A DNA stretch of 34,654 nucleotides, from the NCBI GenBank assembly GCA_913058295.1, contig CAJXRD010000037.1, forward strand, positions 1 through 34,654, read 5' to 3'. Numbering within the stretch: position 1 is the first letter of the stretch; each line of letters opens with the position of its first letter. The notes under the pieces are model-generated. The model made no database searches. It saw only the letters and a list, made by a program, of their open reading frames with translations, and was not told the DNA's origin. A program made the translations under genes and the position numbers. Below are positions 4,779 through 34,654 of the stretch, piece after piece. Source of the DNA: an uncultured Flavobacteriales bacterium. GTDB lineage: Bacteria > Bacteroidota > Bacteroidia > Flavobacteriales > Flavobacteriaceae.

Positions 4779-5474
4779 ATGAAAAAAATCTTTTTATTTT
4801 CCTTTTTATGTATTGCTTCATTAACCTCTGTTAATTCACAAGCACAGTCCGTTTACGCAGATACAGATATAGATAAATATATCTCGTCAGTACAAATCCC
4901 AAAAAACAATGAAATAGACCTTGTAGGTACTCCTTATGCTAATGAAGAGTTTCAAAAAGGTGTCGCCGTTAAAAACGGATTAACTATTGCTCGTAATATT
5001 GGTTTGAGATATAATGCAAATAAAGATATTTTTGAAATTAAAAAAACGTTTGTCTTAACAGATGATCAAGCTAGATTGTTAAAAAAGACTAATGAAATTA
5101 CATTAAAAATAAATGATAACGATTTTGTTTTTATTACGGCTACTGCCAGTAGTAAAGCACAAGGATATTTTGTTATTCTGCATAAAGGAGAGAAAGTTTC
5201 CCTTTATAAAAAAATAAAGAAAGAGTTTATTCCTGGTCAAAAAGCATATTCGTCAATGACTAAAGCAGTATCTCCAACCTATAAAGAAAAAATTATTTAT
5301 TATATGGCAGATTCTGAAGGTGTACTTTCAGAATTACCAAATTCTAAAAAGAAAAAAGTAGAAGCTTTAGGTGAAAACTCTAAAGAGATTAAATCCTTTT
5401 TAAAAGAGAATAAAATAAATGTGAATAAAGAAAAAGACCTTATAAAACTCACTGAGTTTGTGAATACATTATAA
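4779..5474 (+). CDS. Secreted/periplasmic protein of unknown function, paralogue 1 of 3
   Basis: I do not recognise the family. The product has 231 residues and a signal peptide (MKKIFLFSFLCIASLTSVNSQAQ). The start at ATG 4779 is preferred over a TTG at 4758, because that TTG overlaps a -7 promoter box and only adds residues in front of the signal peptide. It shares an ordered set of motifs with the proteins at 13369-14085 and 14204-14911: G[ST]PY-x4-F-x2-G near residue 50, a conserved RYN about 30 residues later, LYKK in the middle, a lysine-rich P[ND]SK[KN]KK-type segment followed by x3-x-G, and a C-terminal [VDI]xK/DExDL helix. No cysteines are conserved and no catalytic motif is evident. 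It is transcribed alone, between a terminator and a strong bidirectional terminator, and is convergent with the TPR-AraC regulator gene. Confidence 0.75.
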   Translation: MKKIFLFSFLCIASLTSVNSQAQSVYADTDIDKYISSVQIPKNNEIDLVGTPYANEEFQKGVAVKNGLTIARNIGLRYNANKDIFEIKKTFVLTDDQARLLKKTNEITLKINDNDFVFITATASSKAQGYFVILHKGEKVSLYKKIKKEFIPGQKAYSSMTKAVSPTYKEKIIYYMADSEGVLSELPNSKKKKVEALGENSKEIKSFLKENKINVNKEKDLIKLTEFVNTL

Positions 5475-5497: not shown

Positions 5498-5534
5498 AAA
5501 AAAGCGGAAAGAAATTTATTCTTTTCGCTTTTTT
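5498..5534. terminator. Bidirectional intrinsic terminator between convergent genes
   Basis: AAAAAAGCGGAAAGAA (5498-5513) pairs with TTCTTTTCGCTTTTTT (5519-5534) with one G-T wobble, giving a 16-bp stem and a 5-nt loop. It has A6 on one side and T6 on the other, so it can end transcription in both directions. It overlaps the TAA of the minus-strand regulator gene (5533-5535). Confidence 0.85.
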
Positions 5535-7206
5535 ATTTTCCTTTAATTTCTAATTGCTTCACAAAATAAGAAGGGTATATTCCAAATTTTTTATAGAAAG
5601 CTTTAGAAAATGACTCTGAGCTTTTAAAGCCACAATCATTAGCAATAGCCTTAATAGTATACCTCCTAAATTTTTTATTTGCCTCTAATTCTTTTATTGC
5701 AAAATCAATTCTTAAATCATTGATGTATTGCGAAAAATTCTTATCCTTTTTTAAATTAATAACCTTTGAAAGGTATGTTGAATTGGTTTCGAAGCTTTTG
5801 GCAACTTCGTTTAAAGAAACATCTTTAGATAAAAACTTATCTTCAGATTCAAAAAGATCCAACTGTTTTAAAATATCTTCAATTACTATCACCGATATAA
5901 CATTAGAATCTGTTTCTAGCTTTGAAGTTTTTGCTTTTGCCTTTTCTTTTTCTTGATTTGCAATTAAATTTTCAAAACGTTTTTTAAACTGTTGTTGTCT
6001 TCTAAAATAATAGAATAATGCAATAATGCTTATACTTAAGAAGCCCAAAACCCACCAAGTGATTAAAGTAGAGGTTTTATTTTTTTCATTGAGTTCTTCA
6101 ATTAATCCCTCTTTTTCTTCCAAAAGCTTGGGAATAAGATATTCCTTTTCTGTTTTAGCTTTAATATTTACTCTTTTAGCATCAATAACCCTTACTATTT
6201 GTACTAATTTATATAAATATTCTAATTGCTTTTCCTTTTCATTTTGATCTCTATAATAGCTAACTAACTTATCATAAACAAAAGGCAGCTCTGGATTTAG
6301 CACATGTTTTGCTTCATAAATAGAATCTATTTTCTTTAAATAAGGTACACCTCTTTCTTTATTTCCTTGATTGTAATAGGTGCTTCCAACATAATAATAA
6401 TAGTAAGGCAAATAACTATTGTTATACAAGGCCCTATTTTTATCTCCCTTTTGCAAACTATCTAAAGCATCATTATAATTTCCTTTTGCATAAAGTGCAG
6501 ATCCAGTTCTTGAAACAAAGGCTAAATAAGTAAAGCTATCTTTCTCCTTAAGAGTTTTTTCAATAGCCATATTATAATAGACCAATGCTGAATCTGGTTT
6601 TTTTAATCGGATATAACACTTCCCTATATCTTCTAACGAATACAAGTAATGCTCTGAATAATGTTCAATTTCAGGGTTTGCGTTTAATAGTTTGTAGGTT
6701 AATAAAGAAGTTTCTAATGCTTTTGAATAATCTCCCCACAATTCATTTATTCTTATAATTTGGTGAAGTGCAGTAATCTGTTGGTCTATATTATTACTTT
6801 TATTGGAAGACTGATAGCCTAATATTGCACTTTGTAGGCTCTTTTCATATTCTTCTTTTTCATATAATAAATGAGATTTATTAATATATGCCAATGCAGG
6901 AAAATTAATATGTTCACTCTCTTTTGAAAGTGCTATGGAAGTATCTAAATATTTTAATGCATTTCTTCTTTTTGACTTCTCAGCCATTTTCACATAACCC
7001 AAAGCCATTTTATTACTATCCTTCTCGATTCTAGATTTTTCTATATATACTCTTGCAATTTGTTTGGCTTTTACTGTGTCTCCAGTATTGTTAAACAACA
7101 ACAATAAAGAATTATAAGATTTTGTTTGTAATGAATCTTGAGAGGAAGTTTGTGCAAACCCAACTGTAAATGATAAAATAAATAATATTGTAAAAATTGA
7201 CTTCAT
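5533..7206 (-). CDS. TPR-repeat transmembrane AraC-family transcriptional regulator
   Basis: The 557-residue protein has a signal peptide (residues 1-19), a periplasmic TPR array (~45-350, with repeat cores such as ALGYVKMAEK, ALVYYNMAIEK and GSTYYNQGNKERG), a coiled region, one transmembrane helix (~381-400, ITWWVLGFLSISIIALFYYF) and a cytoplasmic C-terminal AraC-type helix-turn-helix (~455-550). The HTH has the usual YLSKVINLKKDKNFSQYIN and the IANDCGFKSSESFSKAFYKK signature, with FG-x-YPS after it. This layout is common in Flavobacteriia and suggests direct membrane signal transduction to DNA. It is transcribed away from the TonB-receptor operon, whose upstream region holds a 22-bp dyad (7353-7374) that is also found at 13228. 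The regulator is a natural candidate to bind that dyad, but this is inferred from position only. Confidence 0.88.
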   Translation of the reverse strand: MKSIFTILFILSFTVGFAQTSSQDSLQTKSYNSLLLLFNNTGDTVKAKQIARVYIEKSRIEKDSNKMALGYVKMAEKSKRRNALKYLDTSIALSKESEHINFPALAYINKSHLLYEKEEYEKSLQSAILGYQSSNKSNNIDQQITALHQIIRINELWGDYSKALETSLLTYKLLNANPEIEHYSEHYLYSLEDIGKCYIRLKKPDSALVYYNMAIEKTLKEKDSFTYLAFVSRTGSALYAKGNYNDALDSLQKGDKNRALYNNSYLPYYYYYVGSTYYNQGNKERGVPYLKKIDSIYEAKHVLNPELPFVYDKLVSYYRDQNEKEKQLEYLYKLVQIVRVIDAKRVNIKAKTEKEYLIPKLLEEKEGLIEELNEKNKTSTLITWWVLGFLSISIIALFYYFRRQQQFKKRFENLIANQEKEKAKAKTSKLETDSNVISVIVIEDILKQLDLFESEDKFLSKDVSLNEVAKSFETNSTYLSKVINLKKDKNFSQYINDLRIDFAIKELEANKKFRRYTIKAIANDCGFKSSESFSKAFYKKFGIYPSYFVKQLEIKGK

Positions 7207-7352: not shown

Positions 7353-7374
7353 GTCTAAATTTATAAATAACGAC
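7353..7374. promoter_or_regulatory. 22-bp dyad operator candidate, copy 1 (upstream of TonB-receptor operon)
   Basis: The sequence is GTC-TAA-ATTTATAAAT-AAC-GAC, with perfect GTC/GAC outer and ATTTA/TAAAT inner dyad symmetry. It ends 80 bp before the ATG at 7455. It matches the copy at 13228-13249 at 21 of 22 positions. Confidence 0.6.
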
Positions 7375-7454
7375 TTCATTTTTATGAATGGAGACCAAGT
7401 CGGTTAGGATTAATCTGTTATATGAAGTTAATTTGAGTAGTTCAAAAACAAAAA

Positions 7455-10217
7455 ATGAAAAAATTATATACCCTCATTTTACTATGTAACTTCTGCTTCG
7501 CTTTTTCACAAGAGAAGGATTCCAAGATATCATTACAATTTGAAGATGCTACATTGGAAGAAGTTATTAAAAATATAGAAGAAAAAACCAATTATCAGTT
7601 TTACTATTTAGAGGCTTGGTTTCCTGACAAATTAATTTCTGGCAATTATAAAGAAGCAAGTATTCAAGAAATTCTAGACGACCTTTTTAAAGAATCACTT
7701 ATCAATTATTATATTTCATCAGATAATAAAGTGATTTTAACCAAAAACAATATTATTTACGACAGCTTGCCCAATGGTTTTTTTAAGGAAGAAAATTCCA
7801 TTCCAACCGAAACCGAAACAGCCCCTATTAATTCTCCAATATTTGTAAATGATGAAAATGTTACTAAAGTAAAAAAAATAGAAACTATTCGAATAGGGAG
7901 GGAAAATAAAAACAGCAGTCAAAAACAATTTACATTAAAAGGAATCATCACAAATAAGATTGATGGTAAGCCTATTTCAGATTTAGCTCTTATTGCAAAT
8001 GGTCATAAAATTGGAGCAGTTACTAACAAAAATGGTCTTTACATAATAAAGCTACCTATAGGAATTAATATCATTGAGACAAGATCTCTAGCCTTTGAAG
8101 AAATTAAAATACGAGTGATTATTTATAATGATGGGCAATTAGATTTTAGTATCAACGAAAGTTATGAAGGCTTGGATGAAGTTATTATAAAGACTAATGT
8201 TGAGAAAAACATTGAAGAAGTAATTGCTGGAAAAACCGAAATAAATGTAAAACAGGTGAAAAATATTCCACTGGTGTTAGGTGAAAGAGATATTTTTAAA
8301 GTAGCATTATCATTACCAGGAATTTCCACTGCAGGTGAAGGAGCATCTGGCTATAATGTAAGAGGCGGGAAAACAGATCAAAATCTAATATTATTAGACG
8401 ATGCTGTAATCTATAATCCTATTCATTTTTTCGGAATATTTTCTGCAATTAACCCTTTTACAACTGGTGGGTTTGATATTTATAAAGGGAATATCCCTGC
8501 CAAATACGGTGGCCGATTATCTTCTGTTTTCGATATAAAAACGAAAGATGCAAACATTGAAAAAATTTCTGGTGAAGCTGCTATTGGTCCTGTTACTGGA
8601 AACCTTTCTCTAGAAATTCCTATTGTGAAAGGTAAGTCTGGATTATTGATTGGTGGAAGAGCCACCTATTCCGATTGGATTTTAAGATCCTTAGACAATG
8701 AGGAGCTAAAAAACAGTCAGGCTTCTTATTACGATGTTATTGCAAAATACAACCATAAATTTGATGAAAACAATGAATTAAAAGCATCTGGCTATTTTAG
8801 TAAAGACAAGTATAGTATTACTTCAGATTCTCTGTATAATTATAATAACAGACTTGCATCTATTAAATGGAAGCATAAATTTAACGAGAAAAATAGTGGT
8901 GATTTAATCCTTTCCAATAGCAATTATAGATTTGATATAGAGTACGATGGAAATGCCAATAATGACTTTAAATTAAATTACAATATTGATGAGATTGAGC
9001 TAAAGCTTAATATGCAATATCTTCCAAATAAAAAGCATGCGATAAATTATGGAATAGCTAGTAAACTTTATGATGTAGAGCCTGGAAACTTAACACCTGA
9101 AGGTTCAGAGTCTATTATAGATCCTTTAACAATACCCACAGAAAGAGCTTTGGAATCTGGTTTATTTATATCGGATAATTTTACAATAAACGAGAAATTA
9201 TCTGTCTATGCTGGATTGCGATATTCTATCTATATGTATTTAGGCGAATCTACACAACGGCTTTACGAAAGTGGATTACCAAAAAACGAGACCACACTTA
9301 TTGGCAGTCAAGAATATGATAAAAACGAAGTGGTTAAAACCTATACAGGCCCTGAAATTAGACTTTCTGCACGATATCTAATCAAGCCAGATCTCGCGGT
9401 TAAGGCAAGCTACAACTCTTTATACCAATACATTCATTCATTATCAAACAATACTACTGCCTCTCCTGTAGATACTTGGAAACTTTCAGATTTAAATATT
9501 AGTCCCCAAGATGCTAAACAATTTTCAATAGGATTATTTAAAAGTTTTGAGGATAATAAATATGAACTAAGCATAGAGGGTTATTATAAAAAGATGAACA
9601 ATGTTTTAGATTATAAAGTTGGAGCGCAACTTTTATTAAATGAGACTATCGAACAAGAACTTTTACAAGGAGATGGAAAGTCCTACGGTATTGAGTTTTT
9701 AATTCGGAAAAATTATGGAAAATTAAATGGATGGCTTGGCTATACTTATTCCAGATCTTTTACAAAATTGGATGGTGATTTTGCGGAAGAAATTGTAAAT
9801 GATGGAGAATACTTTCCTTCCAACTATGACAAGCCTCACGACATTAGTTTAGTTACAAATTACAAACTTACACAACGCTTTAGTCTCTCCTCTAATTTTG
9901 TTTATCAAACAGGAAGACCAGTAACCGTCCCTGTTGGAAATTATATTTTTAATGGAGCCGAATATGTTCTTTATAGTGACCGAAATGAATATAGAATTCC
10001 AGATTATTTTAGATTAGATATAGGCGTTAATATTGAAGGAAATCATAAACTTAAAAAACTAGCACATAGCTTTTGGAATATTTCAATCTATAATGTATTG
10101 GGAAGAAACAATCCCTATTCGGTTTATTTTGTAACCGAAAATGGTGAAGTAAAAGCATATCAAACTTCTATTTTTTCTATTCCTATTCCAACCATAACTT
10201 ATAATATAAAATTTTAA
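7455..10217 (+). CDS. TonB-dependent outer-membrane receptor with STN and carboxypeptidase-regulatory domains
   Basis: This is an active outer-membrane uptake channel powered by TonB. The 920-residue product has a signal peptide (1-19), an STN/secretin-TonB short N-terminal domain (~26-97, LQFEDATLEEVIKNIEEKTN to YYISSDNKVILT), and a linker. A carboxypeptidase-D-regulatory-like beta domain follows (~159-245, TLKGIITNKIDGKPISD). The plug is at ~265-375, with GYNVRGGKTDQNLILLDDA and DIYKGNIPAKYGGRLSSVFD. A beta-barrel then ends in an aromatic strand (TITYNIKF). STN domains often receive anti-sigma factors, but no sigma/anti-sigma pair lies nearby. The next gene starts 2 bp after the stop and encodes a DUF4249 lipoprotein, a frequent partner of this receptor subclass. 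There is no SusD homologue. The substrate is unknown. Confidence 0.93.
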   Translation: MKKLYTLILLCNFCFAFSQEKDSKISLQFEDATLEEVIKNIEEKTNYQFYYLEAWFPDKLISGNYKEASIQEILDDLFKESLINYYISSDNKVILTKNNIIYDSLPNGFFKEENSIPTETETAPINSPIFVNDENVTKVKKIETIRIGRENKNSSQKQFTLKGIITNKIDGKPISDLALIANGHKIGAVTNKNGLYIIKLPIGINIIETRSLAFEEIKIRVIIYNDGQLDFSINESYEGLDEVIIKTNVEKNIEEVIAGKTEINVKQVKNIPLVLGERDIFKVALSLPGISTAGEGASGYNVRGGKTDQNLILLDDAVIYNPIHFFGIFSAINPFTTGGFDIYKGNIPAKYGGRLSSVFDIKTKDANIEKISGEAAIGPVTGNLSLEIPIVKGKSGLLIGGRATYSDWILRSLDNEELKNSQASYYDVIAKYNHKFDENNELKASGYFSKDKYSITSDSLYNYNNRLASIKWKHKFNEKNSGDLILSNSNYRFDIEYDGNANNDFKLNYNIDEIELKLNMQYLPNKKHAINYGIASKLYDVEPGNLTPEGSESIIDPLTIPTERALESGLFISDNFTINEKLSVYAGLRYSIYMYLGESTQRLYESGLPKNETTLIGSQEYDKNEVVKTYTGPEIRLSARYLIKPDLAVKASYNSLYQYIHSLSNNTTASPVDTWKLSDLNISPQDAKQFSIGLFKSFEDNKYELSIEGYYKKMNNVLDYKVGAQLLLNETIEQELLQGDGKSYGIEFLIRKNYGKLNGWLGYTYSRSFTKLDGDFAEEIVNDGEYFPSNYDKPHDISLVTNYKLTQRFSLSSNFVYQTGRPVTVPVGNYIFNGAEYVLYSDRNEYRIPDYFRLDIGVNIEGNHKLKKLAHSFWNISIYNVLGRNNPYSVYFVTENGEVKAYQTSIFSIPIPTITYNIKF

Positions 10218-10219
10218 TT

Positions 10220-11428
10220 ATGACTAAAATAAATACACAAAGCCTATTAAAATTGGGACTACTATTGTTTATTTTAAACAGTTGTACCGAAGAAATAGAT
10301 TTTAAAACCGAATCTTTTGAAAGTGCTTTAGTAATAGATGCTACTATTACTAACGAGTTAAAACACCAAGAAGTAATTTTAAGCAGAACCTATGCATTTG
10401 AAGAGGAGGCAACTAATCCAGAAACTAATGCGGAGGTAAGAATAGCTAGTGATAATGGGGAGTTTATATTTCAAGAAATAGAAAATGGAAAGTATGTCTC
10501 TAATACTGCATTTAAAGCAGAGTCCAACACAAATTACTCCTTAAAAGTTACAACAAATAATGGTCAGCTATATAGCTCTTCTCCTATGCAACTTACACAA
10601 GCTACTCAAATAGACCAACTGTATGCAGTAAGAGAAACAAACGATCAAGGAGAAAATGGTATGGCAATTTATGTAGATAGTTATGACCCCTTTGGAAAAT
10701 CTAAAAACTATCGCTATGAATATGAAGAAACTTATAAAATTATTGCTCCAACGTGGGTTCCAGAAGATATTTTAGTTTTAGATGAGTTTTTTCCTTGTAC
10801 CGTAGACCTAGTACCAAAAGCACAAGAAGAACAAGTTTGTTATAATACCGTAAAATCGATTAGCATTAATCAAACCAATACCAATTCATTAACAGAAGAT
10901 AGAGTTACTAGACATTTGATTCGGTTTATTAATGAAGATAATTATATAATATCACATCGGTATAGTATTCTTTTAAAACAATATATTCCTTCACAAGAAG
11001 CGTATACCTATTATGAAACGCTAAATCATTTTTCTGAAGAAAGTAGTTTATTATCTCAAGTACAACCAGGATTTATTAATAGTAATGTGTTTTCTGAAAG
11101 CAATCCTAGTGAAAATGTTTTAGGATTTTTTGATGTTTCATCGGTATCTTCAGAAAGAATTTATTTTAATTATAGAGACTTTTACCCAGATGAAAATTTA
11201 CCACCATTTCCTGTTATTTGTTATCCTGTAGAACATTACCAATTTACTTCAGGTGGCGCTTGCGGCTCCTTAATTACAGAATTACTTAGAGATAGAGTAG
11301 TCTATCATAGTGGAGCAACAGTCAGGCCTGATAACACAACTATAGGCCCTTTTTTAATGGTACTTAGGGAATGTGGAGATTGTACCGCTTTAGGTAAGAA
11401 TGTAGCACCAGATTTTTGGGAAGAATAA
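10220..11428 (+). CDS. DUF4249 domain-containing lipoprotein
   Basis: The 402-residue protein starts with a lipoprotein signal ending in LNSC (C22) and continues with the DUF4249 pattern (EEIDFKTESFESALVIDATI, then NEVILSRTY-like and NAEVRIASDNGEF segments). The C-terminal third has several cysteines (PFPVICYPVEHYQFTSGGACG and LRECGDCTALG) that may form disulfides in the envelope. DUF4249 lipoproteins are encoded next to TonB-dependent receptors across Bacteroidota and probably act as surface or periplasmic partners of the receptor, in place of SusD. Translational coupling with the receptor is likely because only 2 bp separate the genes. The exact function of the domain is unknown. Confidence 0.88.
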   Translation: MTKINTQSLLKLGLLLFILNSCTEEIDFKTESFESALVIDATITNELKHQEVILSRTYAFEEEATNPETNAEVRIASDNGEFIFQEIENGKYVSNTAFKAESNTNYSLKVTTNNGQLYSSSPMQLTQATQIDQLYAVRETNDQGENGMAIYVDSYDPFGKSKNYRYEYEETYKIIAPTWVPEDILVLDEFFPCTVDLVPKAQEEQVCYNTVKSISINQTNTNSLTEDRVTRHLIRFINEDNYIISHRYSILLKQYIPSQEAYTYYETLNHFSEESSLLSQVQPGFINSNVFSESNPSENVLGFFDVSSVSSERIYFNYRDFYPDENLPPFPVICYPVEHYQFTSGGACGSLITELLRDRVVYHSGATVRPDNTTIGPFLMVLRECGDCTALGKNVAPDFWEE

Positions 11429-11441
11429 AAAATAAATAATT

Positions 11442-13193
11442 ATGAAAAAAACAAAAATCATAGCATTACTAATATTTACTCTTAGTATACAAACAATATA
11501 TAGTCAAAGGGATAATAATAGCTATATCGATGCTTATAATTTTACTCCCAAAGAAAACATCTTTGTTCATTATAACACTTCCTTATTGTTTGCAGGAGAA
11601 TATCTTTATTACAAGGTCTATTGTTTAAACGCAACACATAATCAATTAAGCAAATTAAGTAAAGTAGCCTATGTAGAGCTTATTAGTGAAGATAAACAAA
11701 AAGTATTTAGACATAAAATTAGTCTGAAAAATGGATTAGGGCAAGGAGACTTTTTTATCTCTACTTCTATTCCATCTGGTAATTATAAAATAATCGCTTA
11801 TACGCAATGGATGAAAAACGGAGGAAGAAATTATTTTTTCCAGGGGGATATTAGTATTATTAATCCATATCTAGCGAATCAAAAATCGATTATAGATACC
11901 ACTAATATTTCAACAAATTATAATTCAGAAAAAAATAAAATCCAGAATTCTTCCTATTATTTAAAATTGACTACAAACAGTGAAAAGTATAAAAAAAGAG
12001 AGAAAGTAGCAATAAACATAATTAACCTTAAAGAAGTAGGAGGCCATGGTAATTACTCTATTTCTGTTAGAAAATTAGACACTGTTAATTCCACAGTAAG
12101 AATTACAGCTATAGATTATAAAAAGAATTATTCAAACCAGGAAATCACTAAAAATAAAAAAGTTTCAGAAATATATAATCCTGAAATCAATGGAGGCATC
12201 ATCTCTGGCAGTATCCTAAATAATAGTACTAATTTACCTGCTCAAGAAGAGGATGTAAGTATTTCGATTCCGGGTAAAAATTTTATTTTTAAAACGGTAA
12301 CCACAGACGAAAACGGTGCCTTTAATATTTCTATAAAAGAAAATCATATTAAAGAAACGGGAATAATTCAAGTACTTGGTGAGGATAGAGAAAACTTTAG
12401 TGTAGAAATAACAGAAACACCTTCTGTAGATTTATCACAATTAAAATTCAACTCTTTTAAAATAACTCCATCCATAAAAGAAATGGTTTTAGAAAGAAGT
12501 ATTTATAATCAAATAGAAAATGGTTATTATGCTATAAAGCCAGACACCATTGTTTCATTACCAGCACAAAAACCATTTTATTCAGACTACAATTCTACCG
12601 TTTATACTTTAGAAGATTACGCAAAATTTAACACTGTAAAAGATGTGTTTATTGAAATTGTAGAGGATGTTTGGACCACAAAAAACAAAAATGGAGATCG
12701 GGTCTTTTATGTTAGAAACTTTACGGATAATAATAAAAACCATCTCCCTTTAATTTTTATGGATGGAGTATTAATACAGAACCACAATCACTTAATAGAA
12801 TACAAAGCCAATAAAATAAAAAAGATAGAAATTTTACAAGGAGAGGCTCATTTTGGCACTTCAATTTATCAAGGAGTTATTATTGTGGAAACTATTGATG
12901 GTGATTATAAAAACTTATTAAAAGGAGGTTTTTTAAAGGAATTAAATTTATTTAACCCCCAGCCTACAAAAAATTACTTTCATCAAGTTTATAATGACAA
13001 TAGCGATAACTCTCAACACATTCCAGATTTCAGAAACCAACTATTATGGAGTCCTAACATAAAATTAAATACTAAGGAACAAGAAATATCTTTTTACACA
13101 TCAGACAATTCTGGAGATTATGAAATATGTTTAGAAGGGTTTACAATTTATGGAAAACCAATTACTATACGAAAAGTCATTCATGTGGAATAA
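11442..13193 (+). CDS. Secreted MG2/carboxypeptidase-regulatory protein with a plug-like C-terminal region
   Basis: The 583-residue product has a signal peptide (to IYSQ, residue 22). Residues ~30-145 resemble an alpha-2-macroglobulin MG2-like beta domain, with FTPKENIFVHYNTSLLFAGE, YYKVYCLN, and PSGNYKIIAYTQWMKN. A carboxypeptidase-regulatory-like domain follows near 250-330 (GGIISGSILNNSTNLPAQ to TTDENGAFNISI). A region near 435-485 (PLIFMDGVLIQN, IKKIEILQGEAHFGTSIY, QGVIIVET) resembles the end of a TonB-receptor plug, without a barrel after it. It is the third gene of the operon, 13 bp after the DUF4249 gene. Proteins of this design commonly accompany TonB receptor/DUF4249 pairs, probably as envelope partners. 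The precise role is unknown. The domain calls are by eye. Confidence 0.7.
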   Translation: MKKTKIIALLIFTLSIQTIYSQRDNNSYIDAYNFTPKENIFVHYNTSLLFAGEYLYYKVYCLNATHNQLSKLSKVAYVELISEDKQKVFRHKISLKNGLGQGDFFISTSIPSGNYKIIAYTQWMKNGGRNYFFQGDISIINPYLANQKSIIDTTNISTNYNSEKNKIQNSSYYLKLTTNSEKYKKREKVAINIINLKEVGGHGNYSISVRKLDTVNSTVRITAIDYKKNYSNQEITKNKKVSEIYNPEINGGIISGSILNNSTNLPAQEEDVSISIPGKNFIFKTVTTDENGAFNISIKENHIKETGIIQVLGEDRENFSVEITETPSVDLSQLKFNSFKITPSIKEMVLERSIYNQIENGYYAIKPDTIVSLPAQKPFYSDYNSTVYTLEDYAKFNTVKDVFIEIVEDVWTTKNKNGDRVFYVRNFTDNNKNHLPLIFMDGVLIQNHNHLIEYKANKIKKIEILQGEAHFGTSIYQGVIIVETIDGDYKNLLKGGFLKELNLFNPQPTKNYFHQVYNDNSDNSQHIPDFRNQLLWSPNIKLNTKEQEISFYTSDNSGDYEICLEGFTIYGKPITIRKVIHVE

Positions 13194-13227
13194 TATACCT
13201 AAAGCTTTGTTAAAACCAGTAAATATG

Positions 13228-13249
13228 GTCTAAATTTATAAATACCGAC
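13228..13249. promoter_or_regulatory. 22-bp dyad operator candidate, copy 2 (upstream of paralogue 2)
   Basis: The sequence is GTC-TAA-ATTTATAAAT-ACC-GAC, differing from the copy at 7353-7374 at one position. It ends 8 bp before a TTTG that could be the -33 element of the promoter at 13258-13289, the typical place for an activator site. Confidence 0.6.
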
Positions 13250-13257
13250 CACCTTAG

Positions 13258-13289
13258 TTTGCATACACGGATAGACCGTAGTACTTTTG
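13258..13289 (+). promoter_or_regulatory. Bacteroidota-type promoter for paralogue 2
   Basis: TTTG at 13258-13261 and TACTTTTG at 13282-13289 (fits TAnnTTTG) are separated by 20 bp. The predicted start would leave a ~70-nt leader before ATG 13369. Confidence 0.5.
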
Positions 13290-13368: not shown

Positions 13369-14085
13369 ATGAAAAAGAAAATATTAATTGCACTTAGCTT
13401 TCTATTAATAGGGTCAGGTTTTATTTATGCCCAAAATAGAACTATTCAACTAGAAACAGATTTTTTTGTAAATTCTATGGATCGAAACTATGTAGCGCCA
13501 GATTTTGTAGATAAATATGATGGGTCTCCATATAATTCTACTACATTTTTATTGGGGAATATTTATATCAATAATGAGCTAACTAAGTCTGATGTAGCAA
13601 TGCGTTATAACATCTATTCCGATGAGATGCAAGTTAAAGAAACGTTACAAACTGAGGATAAAGATATCACAGCTTTAATAAAATCTCCAGATATCTCTGT
13701 GACCATATTAAAAGATAAGTTTGTTTATGTGCCTAAAGGAAAAGGTCTAGAAAAAGGAGGGTATTATCAAGTAGAAACTACTGGTAAAACTTATAGCCTT
13801 TATAAGAAACTTGGTAAAGAGTATTTTGAAGCTAGTAAAGCAAAAACTTCTTTTGAAAGAGATGTTCCTGCAAAGTTTGAAGATAGAACTAGCTATTATA
13901 TCCATTTTAGTAATGGTGGCATGGTGTTTTTACCAAAAAACAAAAAGAAAAGATATAAAGCTTTTGGTGAAAGTGAAGCTCTAGTTAAAGCATATGCAAA
14001 AGAAAGAAACTTAGATATTACAAAGGAGAAAGATTTAAGAAGAGTAATTGTTTATTTAGATAATAAAAAAAGTATTACTCAGTAA
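13369..14085 (+). CDS. Secreted/periplasmic protein of unknown function, paralogue 2 of 3
   Basis: The 238-residue protein has a signal peptide (MKKKILIALSFLLIGSGFIYAQ). It aligns along its whole length with the products of 4779-5474 and 14204-14911: GSPYNSTTFLLG, then MRYN, YSLYKKLGKEYF, KTSFERDVPAKFEDR, a lysine-rich PKNKKKRYKAFGE and DITKEKDLRRVIVYLD. The two downstream copies are the closest pair (both have a [KS]xSFE[RK]DV motif, which copy 1 lacks). Its promoter region carries the 22-bp dyad that also precedes the TonB-receptor operon, so it may be co-regulated with that operon. It is followed by a strong terminator (14111-14141). The family is not one I can name; no enzyme motif, lipobox or T9SS tail is visible. 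Confidence 0.75.
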   Translation: MKKKILIALSFLLIGSGFIYAQNRTIQLETDFFVNSMDRNYVAPDFVDKYDGSPYNSTTFLLGNIYINNELTKSDVAMRYNIYSDEMQVKETLQTEDKDITALIKSPDISVTILKDKFVYVPKGKGLEKGGYYQVETTGKTYSLYKKLGKEYFEASKAKTSFERDVPAKFEDRTSYYIHFSNGGMVFLPKNKKKRYKAFGESEALVKAYAKERNLDITKEKDLRRVIVYLDNKKSITQ

Positions 14086-14110
14086 TAGAATCTTTAAAAC
14101 AATAAAAGAG

Positions 14111-14141
14111 AAAAAAGCGACATCAATGATGTCGCTTTTTT
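14111..14141. terminator. Strong bidirectional intrinsic terminator
   Basis: AAAAAA then GCGACATC (14117-14124) pairs with GATGTCGC (14128-14135) followed by T6. It ends paralogue 2. Because of the symmetric A/T flanks it could also stop transcripts that run leftward out of tsaB and antisense through paralogue 3. Its 8-bp GC arm is identical to that of the terminator at 14941. Confidence 0.88.
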
Positions 14142-14142
14142 C

Positions 14143-14172
14143 TTGAGTTTTAAATTTCATTTGTTAACTTTG
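14143..14172 (+). promoter_or_regulatory. Bacteroidota-type promoter for paralogue 3
   Basis: TTG at 14143-14145 and TAACTTTG at 14165-14172 are separated by exactly 19 bp, matching the TTG-N19-TAnnTTTG arrangement. The box ends 31 bp before ATG 14204. It begins directly after the preceding terminator's T-tract. Confidence 0.65.
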
Positions 14173-14203: not shown

Positions 14204-14911
14204 ATGAAAAGCCCCTTACTTGTAATATTTTTTTATCTTTTTATAAATTCTGCATATAGTCAAAATGATTTTTATAGGTATGTGGTGGTAGAAGATAATA
14301 TAACAACCAGAAGTAAGAGAATATCTTCTGACACCAATTATTTACCCGATGATATTATTGGAACTCCATATAGTGATGAAGCATTTTTTAAAGGAAGCGT
14401 ATATGAAAACAATGAAACTACCATAAAAGACCTGTATTTTAGATATAATGCCTTCCAAGATTTTATAGAAGTTAAAAAAAAATTGAGTGATCCTGATAGT
14501 AAAATATTTCTTTTAAAAAAGGACCCTAATGTTTTAATCAAGTTTAATGATGAGTATTTAATGTTTGATGAAAAAATAAATGGTTATTATCAAATATTAT
14601 TTATTGGTAATAATTATAAACTTTATAAAAAATTATATAAAAAATATTACAAACCTATAACAGCAAAATCGTCCTTCGAAAAAGATGTGTTGGCTACATA
14701 TAAAGATATTCCAAAATATTTTTTAGTAGACAATGAAGATACCCTTTATGAGTTTCCAGACTCAAAAAATAAAAAAATAAAACTTTTTGGCAATAAAAAA
14801 TCCGAAATCCAAAATTATGTGAAGAGTAATCGATTAGATATTAATGACGAAGATATCTTAGTTAAGGTGGTTCGTTATTTCGACACTTTTGAGGATGCTA
14901 GCCCGCAATAA
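14204..14911 (+). CDS. Secreted/periplasmic protein of unknown function, paralogue 3 of 3
   Basis: The 235-residue product has a signal peptide (to SAYSQ, residue 20). The family landmarks are GTPYSDEAFFKG, YFRYNAFQDFIEVKK, YKLYKKLYKKYY, SSFEKDVLATYKD, FPDSKNKKIKLFG and DINDEDILVKVVRYFD. It has its own promoter and a terminator that lies inside the convergent tsaB gene; the two coding regions overlap by 14 bp at their 3' ends. It is especially rich in Lys, Tyr and Asn. It is probably a tandem duplicate of the gene just upstream, since even the terminator stem is shared. Function unknown. Confidence 0.75.
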   Translation: MKSPLLVIFFYLFINSAYSQNDFYRYVVVEDNITTRSKRISSDTNYLPDDIIGTPYSDEAFFKGSVYENNETTIKDLYFRYNAFQDFIEVKKKLSDPDSKIFLLKKDPNVLIKFNDEYLMFDEKINGYYQILFIGNNYKLYKKLYKKYYKPITAKSSFEKDVLATYKDIPKYFLVDNEDTLYEFPDSKNKKIKLFGNKKSEIQNYVKSNRLDINDEDILVKVVRYFDTFEDASPQ

Positions 14912-34090: not shown

Positions 34091-34605
34091 CTAAAATTCT
34101 ACTTGGAATAAGATTGGTAAAGAATATAATACACCTACAGCTTGACCTCTTTGTTTCCCTGGAATCATTTTAGGCAAAGATTTTACAACTTTAATTGCTT
34201 CTTCTTGTAATTTAGGGTGAGGAGCTCTTGCCCTAACATTAACAACGTTTCCGTTCTTATCAATCTTAAATTGAACAGAAATTCTTTGTCTTCCTTCTAA
34301 ACCTAAATCTCCAGCAAGTTCAGTGTTAAATTTTTTCTGAACAAACTTTTGAATTTTTTCAGACATACACTGTTTCTTCTCATTATTGTTCTTTTTCTTT
34401 TCACATCCTGGATAAATTGGCACATTTTCAATTACAGCAAAAGGTACATCAGCTATTTCTTCATCTACAGCTTCATCAATTTCTTCAATTTCCACAATTT
34501 CTTCCTCTTGATCTACTTCTGCAGATTCAATAACCGTTTCTTCAATATCAGCTTCATCTTCAACTTCCACAATTACATCTGGTGCAGCTGGTGGCGGTGG
34601 CGGTG
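34091..34605 (-). CDS. Energy transducer TonB, N-terminus cut off by the contig end
   Basis: The frame is open from base 34605 to the stop at 34091-34093 (about 171 residues). An internal GTG at 34570 can be taken as a start but is not one, because the frame continues upstream without a stop as a proline/alanine-rich stretch (PPPPPAAPDVIV). That is the typical TonB periplasmic linker, followed by a very acidic segment (EVEDEADIEETVIESAEVDQ). The C-terminal TonB_C domain has VPIYPGCEKKKNNNEKKQCM, KIQKFVQKKFNTEL and LPKMIPGKQRGQAV. The membrane anchor lies beyond the contig end. It is a tandem paralogue of the next gene and of the N-terminal domain of the RemB-like protein. Confidence 0.88.
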
Positions 34606-34654
34606 CTGTCTCTTATACACATCTCCGAGCCCACGAGACTCCTGAGCATCTCGT
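34606..34654. other. Illumina Nextera adapter with i7 index (not genomic)
   Basis: The final bases start with CTGTCTCTTATACACATCT (34606-34624), the Nextera mosaic end. CCGAGCCCACGAGAC (34625-34639) follows, then TCCTGAGC (34640-34647), which matches a standard Nextera i7 index, and ATCTCGT (34648-34654), the start of the P7 sequence. This is read-through left in the assembly. The biological sequence ends at 34605. Confidence 0.98.

Follow-up and report, generated by a model that had tools for sequence, protein, structure and literature searches.

The window, meaning the whole 34,654-nucleotide stretch of DNA analysed here, belongs to a genome of 3,067,664 bases (3.07 Mb) in 95 contigs and carries a TPR-AraC regulator gene, a three-gene operon that begins with a TonB-dependent receptor, and three paralogous genes of a secreted family, SEC1, SEC2, and SEC3 (Table 1). 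The limits that an earlier, sequence-only reading had given to the operon (7455–13193) and to the regulator gene (5533–7206, minus strand) are both correct. The regulator starts with a signal-like N-terminal helix, continues through a TPR region and a hydrophobic stretch at about residues 382–400, and ends in a C-terminal AraC domain (AlphaFold2 model, mean pLDDT 84), with a membrane topology drawn from the sequence and the predicted helices only and not from a transmembrane predictor. At E <= 0.001, Pfam returns only TPR and HTH families for this protein and no kinase or receiver domains. In addition to its plug domain, the receptor has two matches below the Pfam cut-off, a weaker one to CarbopepD_reg_2 and one to FecR_C at the N-terminus, the latter of which we take to be an STN-like domain. 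None of the three operon proteins has a Pfam match to SusD, the receptor's neighbour in SusCD-type loci, and the DUF4249 protein has been proposed to work with its TonB transporter (PMC11003636, in excerpt).

Table 1. Features of the locus, in coordinates of the window.
Feature	Position	Strand	Remarks
SEC1	4779–5474	+	secreted family; paralogue across the regulator from SEC2
TPR-AraC regulator, 557 aa	5533–7206	-	Pfam HTH_18 (PF12833) 1.5e-12 and TPR_2 1.1e-08, both above cut-off
Dyad copy 1	7353–7374	+	GTCTAAATTTATAAATAACGAC; reversed half-site overlapping forward half-site 7363–7374
Second forward half-site of copy 1	7384–7395	+	ATGAATGGAGAC; 21 bp after the first half-site
Predicted receptor-operon promoter	7404–7435	+	TTAG 7404–7407, N20, TTAATTTG 7428–7435
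TonB-dependent receptor	7455–10217	+	plug domain above cut-off
DUF4249 gene	10220–11428	+	PF14054 6.5e-43
MG2-like protein, third operon gene	11442–13193	+	weak MG2 match below cut-off; gene order the same in L079 and L096
Dyad copy 2	13228–13249	+	GTCTAAATTTATAAATACCGAC
Predicted SEC2 promoter	13258–13289	+	TTTG 13258–13261, N20, TACTTTTG 13282–13289
SEC2	13369–14085	+	secreted family; no Pfam or NCBIfam match
SEC3	14204–14911	+	secreted family; paralogue behind the 14109–14143 hairpin

The Pfam search was likewise without a match for SEC3 and gave a single match, below cut-off, for SEC1, and the NCBIfam search of all three proteins gave none. An AlphaFold2 model of SEC2 built from 29 sequences has a mean pLDDT of 87 and found no match in the PDB by Foldseek at E <= 0.001; the family is an unnamed, putatively secreted one with a confident predicted model. 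No dyad precedes SEC1 in the window. A perfect 17-bp hairpin (14109–14143) lies between SEC2 and SEC3 and is likely a terminator. The end of the contig (34607–34654) resembles a Nextera transposase adapter with an index; it forms the end of the frame 34349–34645 and looks like an assembly artefact.

The dyads upstream of the receptor operon and of SEC2 are as the sequence-only reading had described them in position and symmetry: the copies are identical at 21 of 22 positions, with one position differing, and both fit the pattern GTC-N3-ATTTATAAAT-N3-GAC exactly, the outer GTC/GAC and the inner ATTTATAAAT being symmetric. With up to three mismatches the pattern occurs at three places in the window, the third at 1559 with three mismatches, against a shuffle mean of 0.45, and a count of three was reached in 0 of 100 shuffles. 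The whole genome holds three exact dyads (the two window copies and C3:76774) and one further dyad with a single mismatch (C27:11477), and a reversed control pattern gave none at up to one mismatch. Allowing three mismatches raises the counts to 45 for the dyad and 31 for the reversed control, and weak matches are therefore mostly background. The third exact dyad (G000:C3; L075 8775–8796) immediately follows the stop codon of an AraC gene of 374 aa and precedes an SMP-30/NHL protein with a sorting tail, at a site where the promoter spacing described below is not fitted.

Among 397 genomes of the family, the exact dyad occurs 29 times in 16 genomes, against a single occurrence of the reversed control. 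With up to one mismatch, the 19 genomes of the genus hold 29 dyads against 2 for the control, and the other 40 genomes of the same search hold 5 against 1. All 19 exact sites in the genus fall between called frames; dyads inside called frames were found with one mismatch at three genus loci (L093, L100, and L102) and exactly at two loci outside the genus (L103 and L186). The sequence-only reading had held that random placement across the genome, or a lack of conservation among relatives, would speak against a regulatory role. Neither was seen, given three exact sites against none and 29 against one in the counts above, and the dyad is kept at regulator loci.

Each dyad consists of a reversed half-site that overlaps a forward half-site, the half-site being 12 bp long with the consensus ATAAATnnCGAC, and often another forward half-site stands 21 bp further on, making three. 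Two layouts follow the dyad: 8 bp and then a promoter, or 9 bp, a second half-site ATAAATnnCGAC, a further 8 bp, and then the promoter. The promoter elements (TTTG, N20–21, TAnnTTT) are of the Bacteroidota type. Copy 2 has the first layout, with a SEC2 promoter that scores 9/9 at offset 8, i.e., 8 bp after the dyad, and copy 1 has the second, with a receptor-operon promoter that scores 7/9 at offset 29, 8 bp after the second half-site, and has a poor -33 element (TTAG). The earlier claim that the sequence flanking the two copies is unrelated is thus in need of amendment: the same spaced promoter elements follow both copies, and a further half-site follows copy 1.

This promoter ruler, fitted as TTTG-N20/21-TAnnTTT with at least 7 of 9 letters, was applied to 45 distinct exact dyads, whose loci had been selected by dyad, by regulator, or by both. 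A promoter stands at 8 or 29 bp from 34 of the 45, sites that are not independent because orthologues are included. The TTTG noted earlier at 13258 and its activator-like distance both hold, the distance being 8 bp there and exactly 8 or 29 bp across the 34 dyads. Taken singly, offset 8 is occupied at 13 sites and offset 29 at 23, and any offset reached at most 7 in 500 letter shuffles. Other sets of four offsets sharing none of 8, 9, 29, and 30 gave 1 to 16 sites, with 16 coming from the set directly adjoining the 8/9/29/30 set; 11 of the 45 dyads fall outside the ruler. The 23 members of the 29-bp class have the second half-site at +21 with the consensus ATAAATnnCGAC, except for three in which it is not recognisable (L193, L195, and L090 at 10543). 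When frames were sought downstream of the 34 fitted promoters, 27 had a signal-like start by eye, 5 did not, and 2 were not found. A composite pattern of half-site and promoter, tried as a search tool at up to two mismatches, was hardly distinguishable from its control, with 77 matches against 55 in the 19 genus genomes on both strands, and was abandoned.

The half-site repeat at 21 bp, about two helical turns, and the 8-bp spacing to the promoter are the geometry of an AraC-type activator site. That the TPR-AraC protein binds these sites and represses, or regulates only itself, appears unlikely. The site does lie, at most regulator loci, in the divergent gap beside the regulator gene, and a third promoter-like peak, found 71 bp from 13 of the 45 dyads, may be the regulator's own promoter, both of which would suit autoregulation. 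Against repression, the half-site ends 8 bp upstream of the -33 element and covers neither -33 nor -7, and the constant spacing together with an imperfect -33 element in many sites (TTAG, CTTG, and GTTG) suits activation.

The association between dyad and regulator also appears when the search is made with protein alone. Public genomes were searched with seven aligned regulator sequences, without recourse to any DNA motif, and the dyad was sought within 600 bp before the regulator at the 13 loci found: it is exact at 11, has one mismatch at L149, and has three at L152. Seven of these are genus loci already seen, and five of the other six (L150–L154 and L157) have an exact dyad. In the 397 genomes, exact dyads are present in 7 of the 9 where the regulator is matched at 45% identity or more (E <= 1e-90) and in 9 of the 388 others (Fisher 1.4e-9); the two regulator genomes that lack an exact dyad have a one-mismatch dyad before the regulator (G327, L222) and a three-mismatch dyad (G155). 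Within the genus, where a regulator genome has a match of at least 55% across the greater part of the protein (split in G015 into two pieces at contig ends), dyads with up to one mismatch occur in 7 of 7 regulator genomes and 4 of 12 others (Fisher 0.013), a contrast weakened to 7 of 9 against 4 of 10 if G005 and G007, which have regulator fragments of 44–61 aa at 64% and no dyad, are counted as regulator genomes. Four genus genomes that are 69–87% complete (G004, G009, G010, and G013) have dyads and no regulator match of at least 55%, and 18 of the 45 exact dyads are, by reading, near none of this regulator, SEC genes, another AraC gene, or a receptor operon.

The recognition helices of the regulators vary along with the dyad. 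A paralogous TPR-AraC clade, 37–38% identical and represented in the window genome by C38, has the same layout with the core ATTCATGAAT, as GTC...ATTCATGAAT...GAC in L077, L083, and L091, and, by reading, a second half-site at a distance of 21 bp (22 bp in L077). The HTH1 helix of this clade is TN[HY]KYLS against TNSTYLS. Symmetric 22-mers were scanned before 41 regulators. The core ATTTATAAAT stands before 15 of them, 14 with TNSTYLSK and one the unlike C27 protein, and ATTCATGAAT stands before five, none of which has TNSTYLS; other cores were found for two, and no palindrome for 19, five of these with TNSTYLS. For L150 and L182 the scan lists palindromes other than their dyads, whose symmetry lies under its cut. 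The match of core and helix is a consistent pattern and not a statistical proof because most TNSTYLS proteins are orthologues. At L224, the outer letters and the HTH2 helix are both changed. These observations fit a predicted arrangement in which HTH2 reads the GAC end nearest the promoter and HTH1 reads ATAAAT.

It should be noted that the idea of the nearest AraC protein always binding the dyad was rejected: two dyads of the window genome (C3, exact, and C27, one mismatch) adjoin AraC genes with unlike HTH1 helices. Near-dyads with three to four mismatches beside two other AraC genes (L019 and L023) have no fitting promoter. Three genus members (L076 8478–8499, L081 2875–2896, and L087 9547–9568) keep a one-mismatch dyad with a peptidase gene on one side, assigned to M28 by Pfam in L076, and a different AraC gene on the other; the promoter ruler is absent there by eye. 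At L226 (G118:C1), five complete TPR-AraC paralogues and a cut related frame form a tandem array.

Palindromes of about 20–22 bp suit Crp-like or LuxR-like factors, and the length of the dyad would thus be in keeping with a factor of either kind binding the palindrome, with the AraC gene no more than a common neighbour or target. A Crp-like palindrome of 22 bp has been reported in Bacteroides (PMC3878776, in part), and some genomes have dyads and no full regulator match. This explanation is nonetheless quite unlikely: direct repetition of the half-site at 21 bp is AraC-like, the paralogue clade differs in the core and in HTH1 alike, and dyad and regulator co-occur strongly. A Crp-type palindrome itself was set aside, the Bacteroides consensus wwwTATGTTnTAnAACATAwww, as given in the available part of PMC3878776, differing from the dyad.

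Comparison with relatives suggests an order of events at the locus. The arrangement of SEC gene, regulator, dyad, and SEC2 without the receptor operon is found in G011, G012 (C57), G014, G119, and G238 and at L150, L151, L153, L154 (= G405), and L157; in G114 and G324 the dyad stands before SEC1 instead, and a second G012 locus (L090) has two dyads, one in front of the regulator and one in front of a SEC2 gene. Of the loci read, only those of the window genome and G017 carry the receptor-DUF4249-MG2 operon between the dyad and SEC2, and G008 has a 91-aa MG2 remnant. In G014 (L096) the receptor operon is elsewhere, with a receptor of 924 aa that has a TTG start and its own one-mismatch dyad about 80 bp upstream, and in G009 (L092) it follows another gene with an exact dyad; the dyad sites thus follow the operon. 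As read from these sequences, the older target is the secreted SEC family, which the receptor operon joined in this genus. That the dyads are non-regulatory, i.e., repeats or insertion scars duplicated with the operon, would agree with two copies flanking an operon added at this locus in this genus. Such a scar is highly improbable and contradicted by the comparative data, in which dyads are conserved at loci without the operon and keep the promoter ruler.

Further receptor matches of at least 51% were read at 12 loci (L202–L213) with 13 receptor genes. By iterated profile, a SEC family member stands directly before a receptor at 9 of the 12: all but one of the 9 loci from other genera, which makes 8, and the G007 locus from the genus. 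The exceptions are L207, L208, and L210, the contig of L210 beginning inside the receptor. SEC and receptor therefore belong together even without this regulator. No dyad with up to two mismatches was found at L202–L213, where L202 has 290 bases before its first gene and L210 starts inside the receptor. At L208 (about 2660–2790; G003), in a genome without a regulator match, the receptor operon has a perfect half-site-promoter ruler, with an upstream core that lacks the outer GTC/GAC. In some relatives, further dyads precede other genes, including a leucine-rich-repeat protein with a sorting tail (L088) and a SusD-like gene (L078; by Pfam), which is followed by a protease-like gene. In L092 and L208, what precedes the receptor is SusD-like by eye only. 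The proposal of a small regulon, joining the receptor operon and the secreted paralogue under the adjacent TPR-AraC protein, gains support from this comparison. Its link between secreted protein and receptor is strengthened by the SEC genes before receptors in other genera, and the part that did not stand is the receptor as the older target, the SEC family being older.

The preferred reading, to which we assign a probability of about 80%, is that the dyads are predicted operator sites of the adjacent TPR-AraC regulator, which would activate the receptor operon and SEC2. The periplasmic TPR domain would sense something, and the cytoplasmic AraC domains would contact the half-sites, with the first HTH on ATAAAT and the second on the promoter-proximal GAC end. 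The regulator would then recruit RNA polymerase both to the receptor-DUF4249-MG2 operon promoter and to the SEC2 promoter, and through this common activation the receptor and the secreted SEC protein would be made together. A literature search, with most subscription papers outside its scope, found no description of this type of regulator. The analysis thus offers a predicted operator code with a fixed promoter ruler for a membrane regulator type found undescribed, and ties an unnamed secreted family with no PDB fold match to a DUF4249-type TonB receptor. Paralogue regulons could be read from genomes, and the signal of the TPR sensor becomes directly testable. A wider conjecture, possible though on balance doubtful, is that the TPR-AraC proteins of Bacteroidota are one more class of trans-envelope regulators, in addition to the HTCS, SusR, and ECF/anti-sigma systems, each paralogue with its own three-half-site operator code, and that the receptor's N-terminal domain or the SEC protein reports to the periplasmic TPR domain in a feedback loop that spans the envelope.

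Several known systems share parts of this arrangement. The activator sites of E. coli AraC and RhaS have half-sites at a set distance beside the -35 element, forming direct repeats for AraC and inverted repeats for RhaS. The half-sites here are similarly at a fixed distance from a promoter element, but the inverted pair shares 2 bp and occurs together with a direct repeat, and the promoter is of the -33/-7 type. The pair of TonB transporter and DUF4249 protein BT2172/BT2173 (PMC11003636, in excerpt) resembles the conserved receptor-DUF4249 operon, to which a SEC gene, an MG2-like gene, and the dyad are additional here. SusR is among the membrane-anchored Bacteroides regulators with direct-repeat sites, which for SusR lie 67 or 77 bp apart, compared with 21 bp here (PMC3878776, in part). 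The closest likeness is to the HTCS of Bacteroides, membrane-anchored regulators with a C-terminal AraC domain whose targets include outer-membrane receptors and whose predicted sites are direct repeats; for HTCS_Rgu-1, two 12-bp sites are predicted with 9 bp between them, which gives the 21-bp period of the half-sites here (PMC3878776, in part). The half-sites of this analysis thus have the form of an HTCS-like direct repeat (sites of 12–16 bp with a period of about 21 bp). The window protein differs from the HTCS in having a TPR region and no kinase or receiver match, the dyad arises here from the overlap between a reversed half-site and the first forward one, and the predicted targets belong to an unnamed secreted family and to a receptor of the DUF4249 type.
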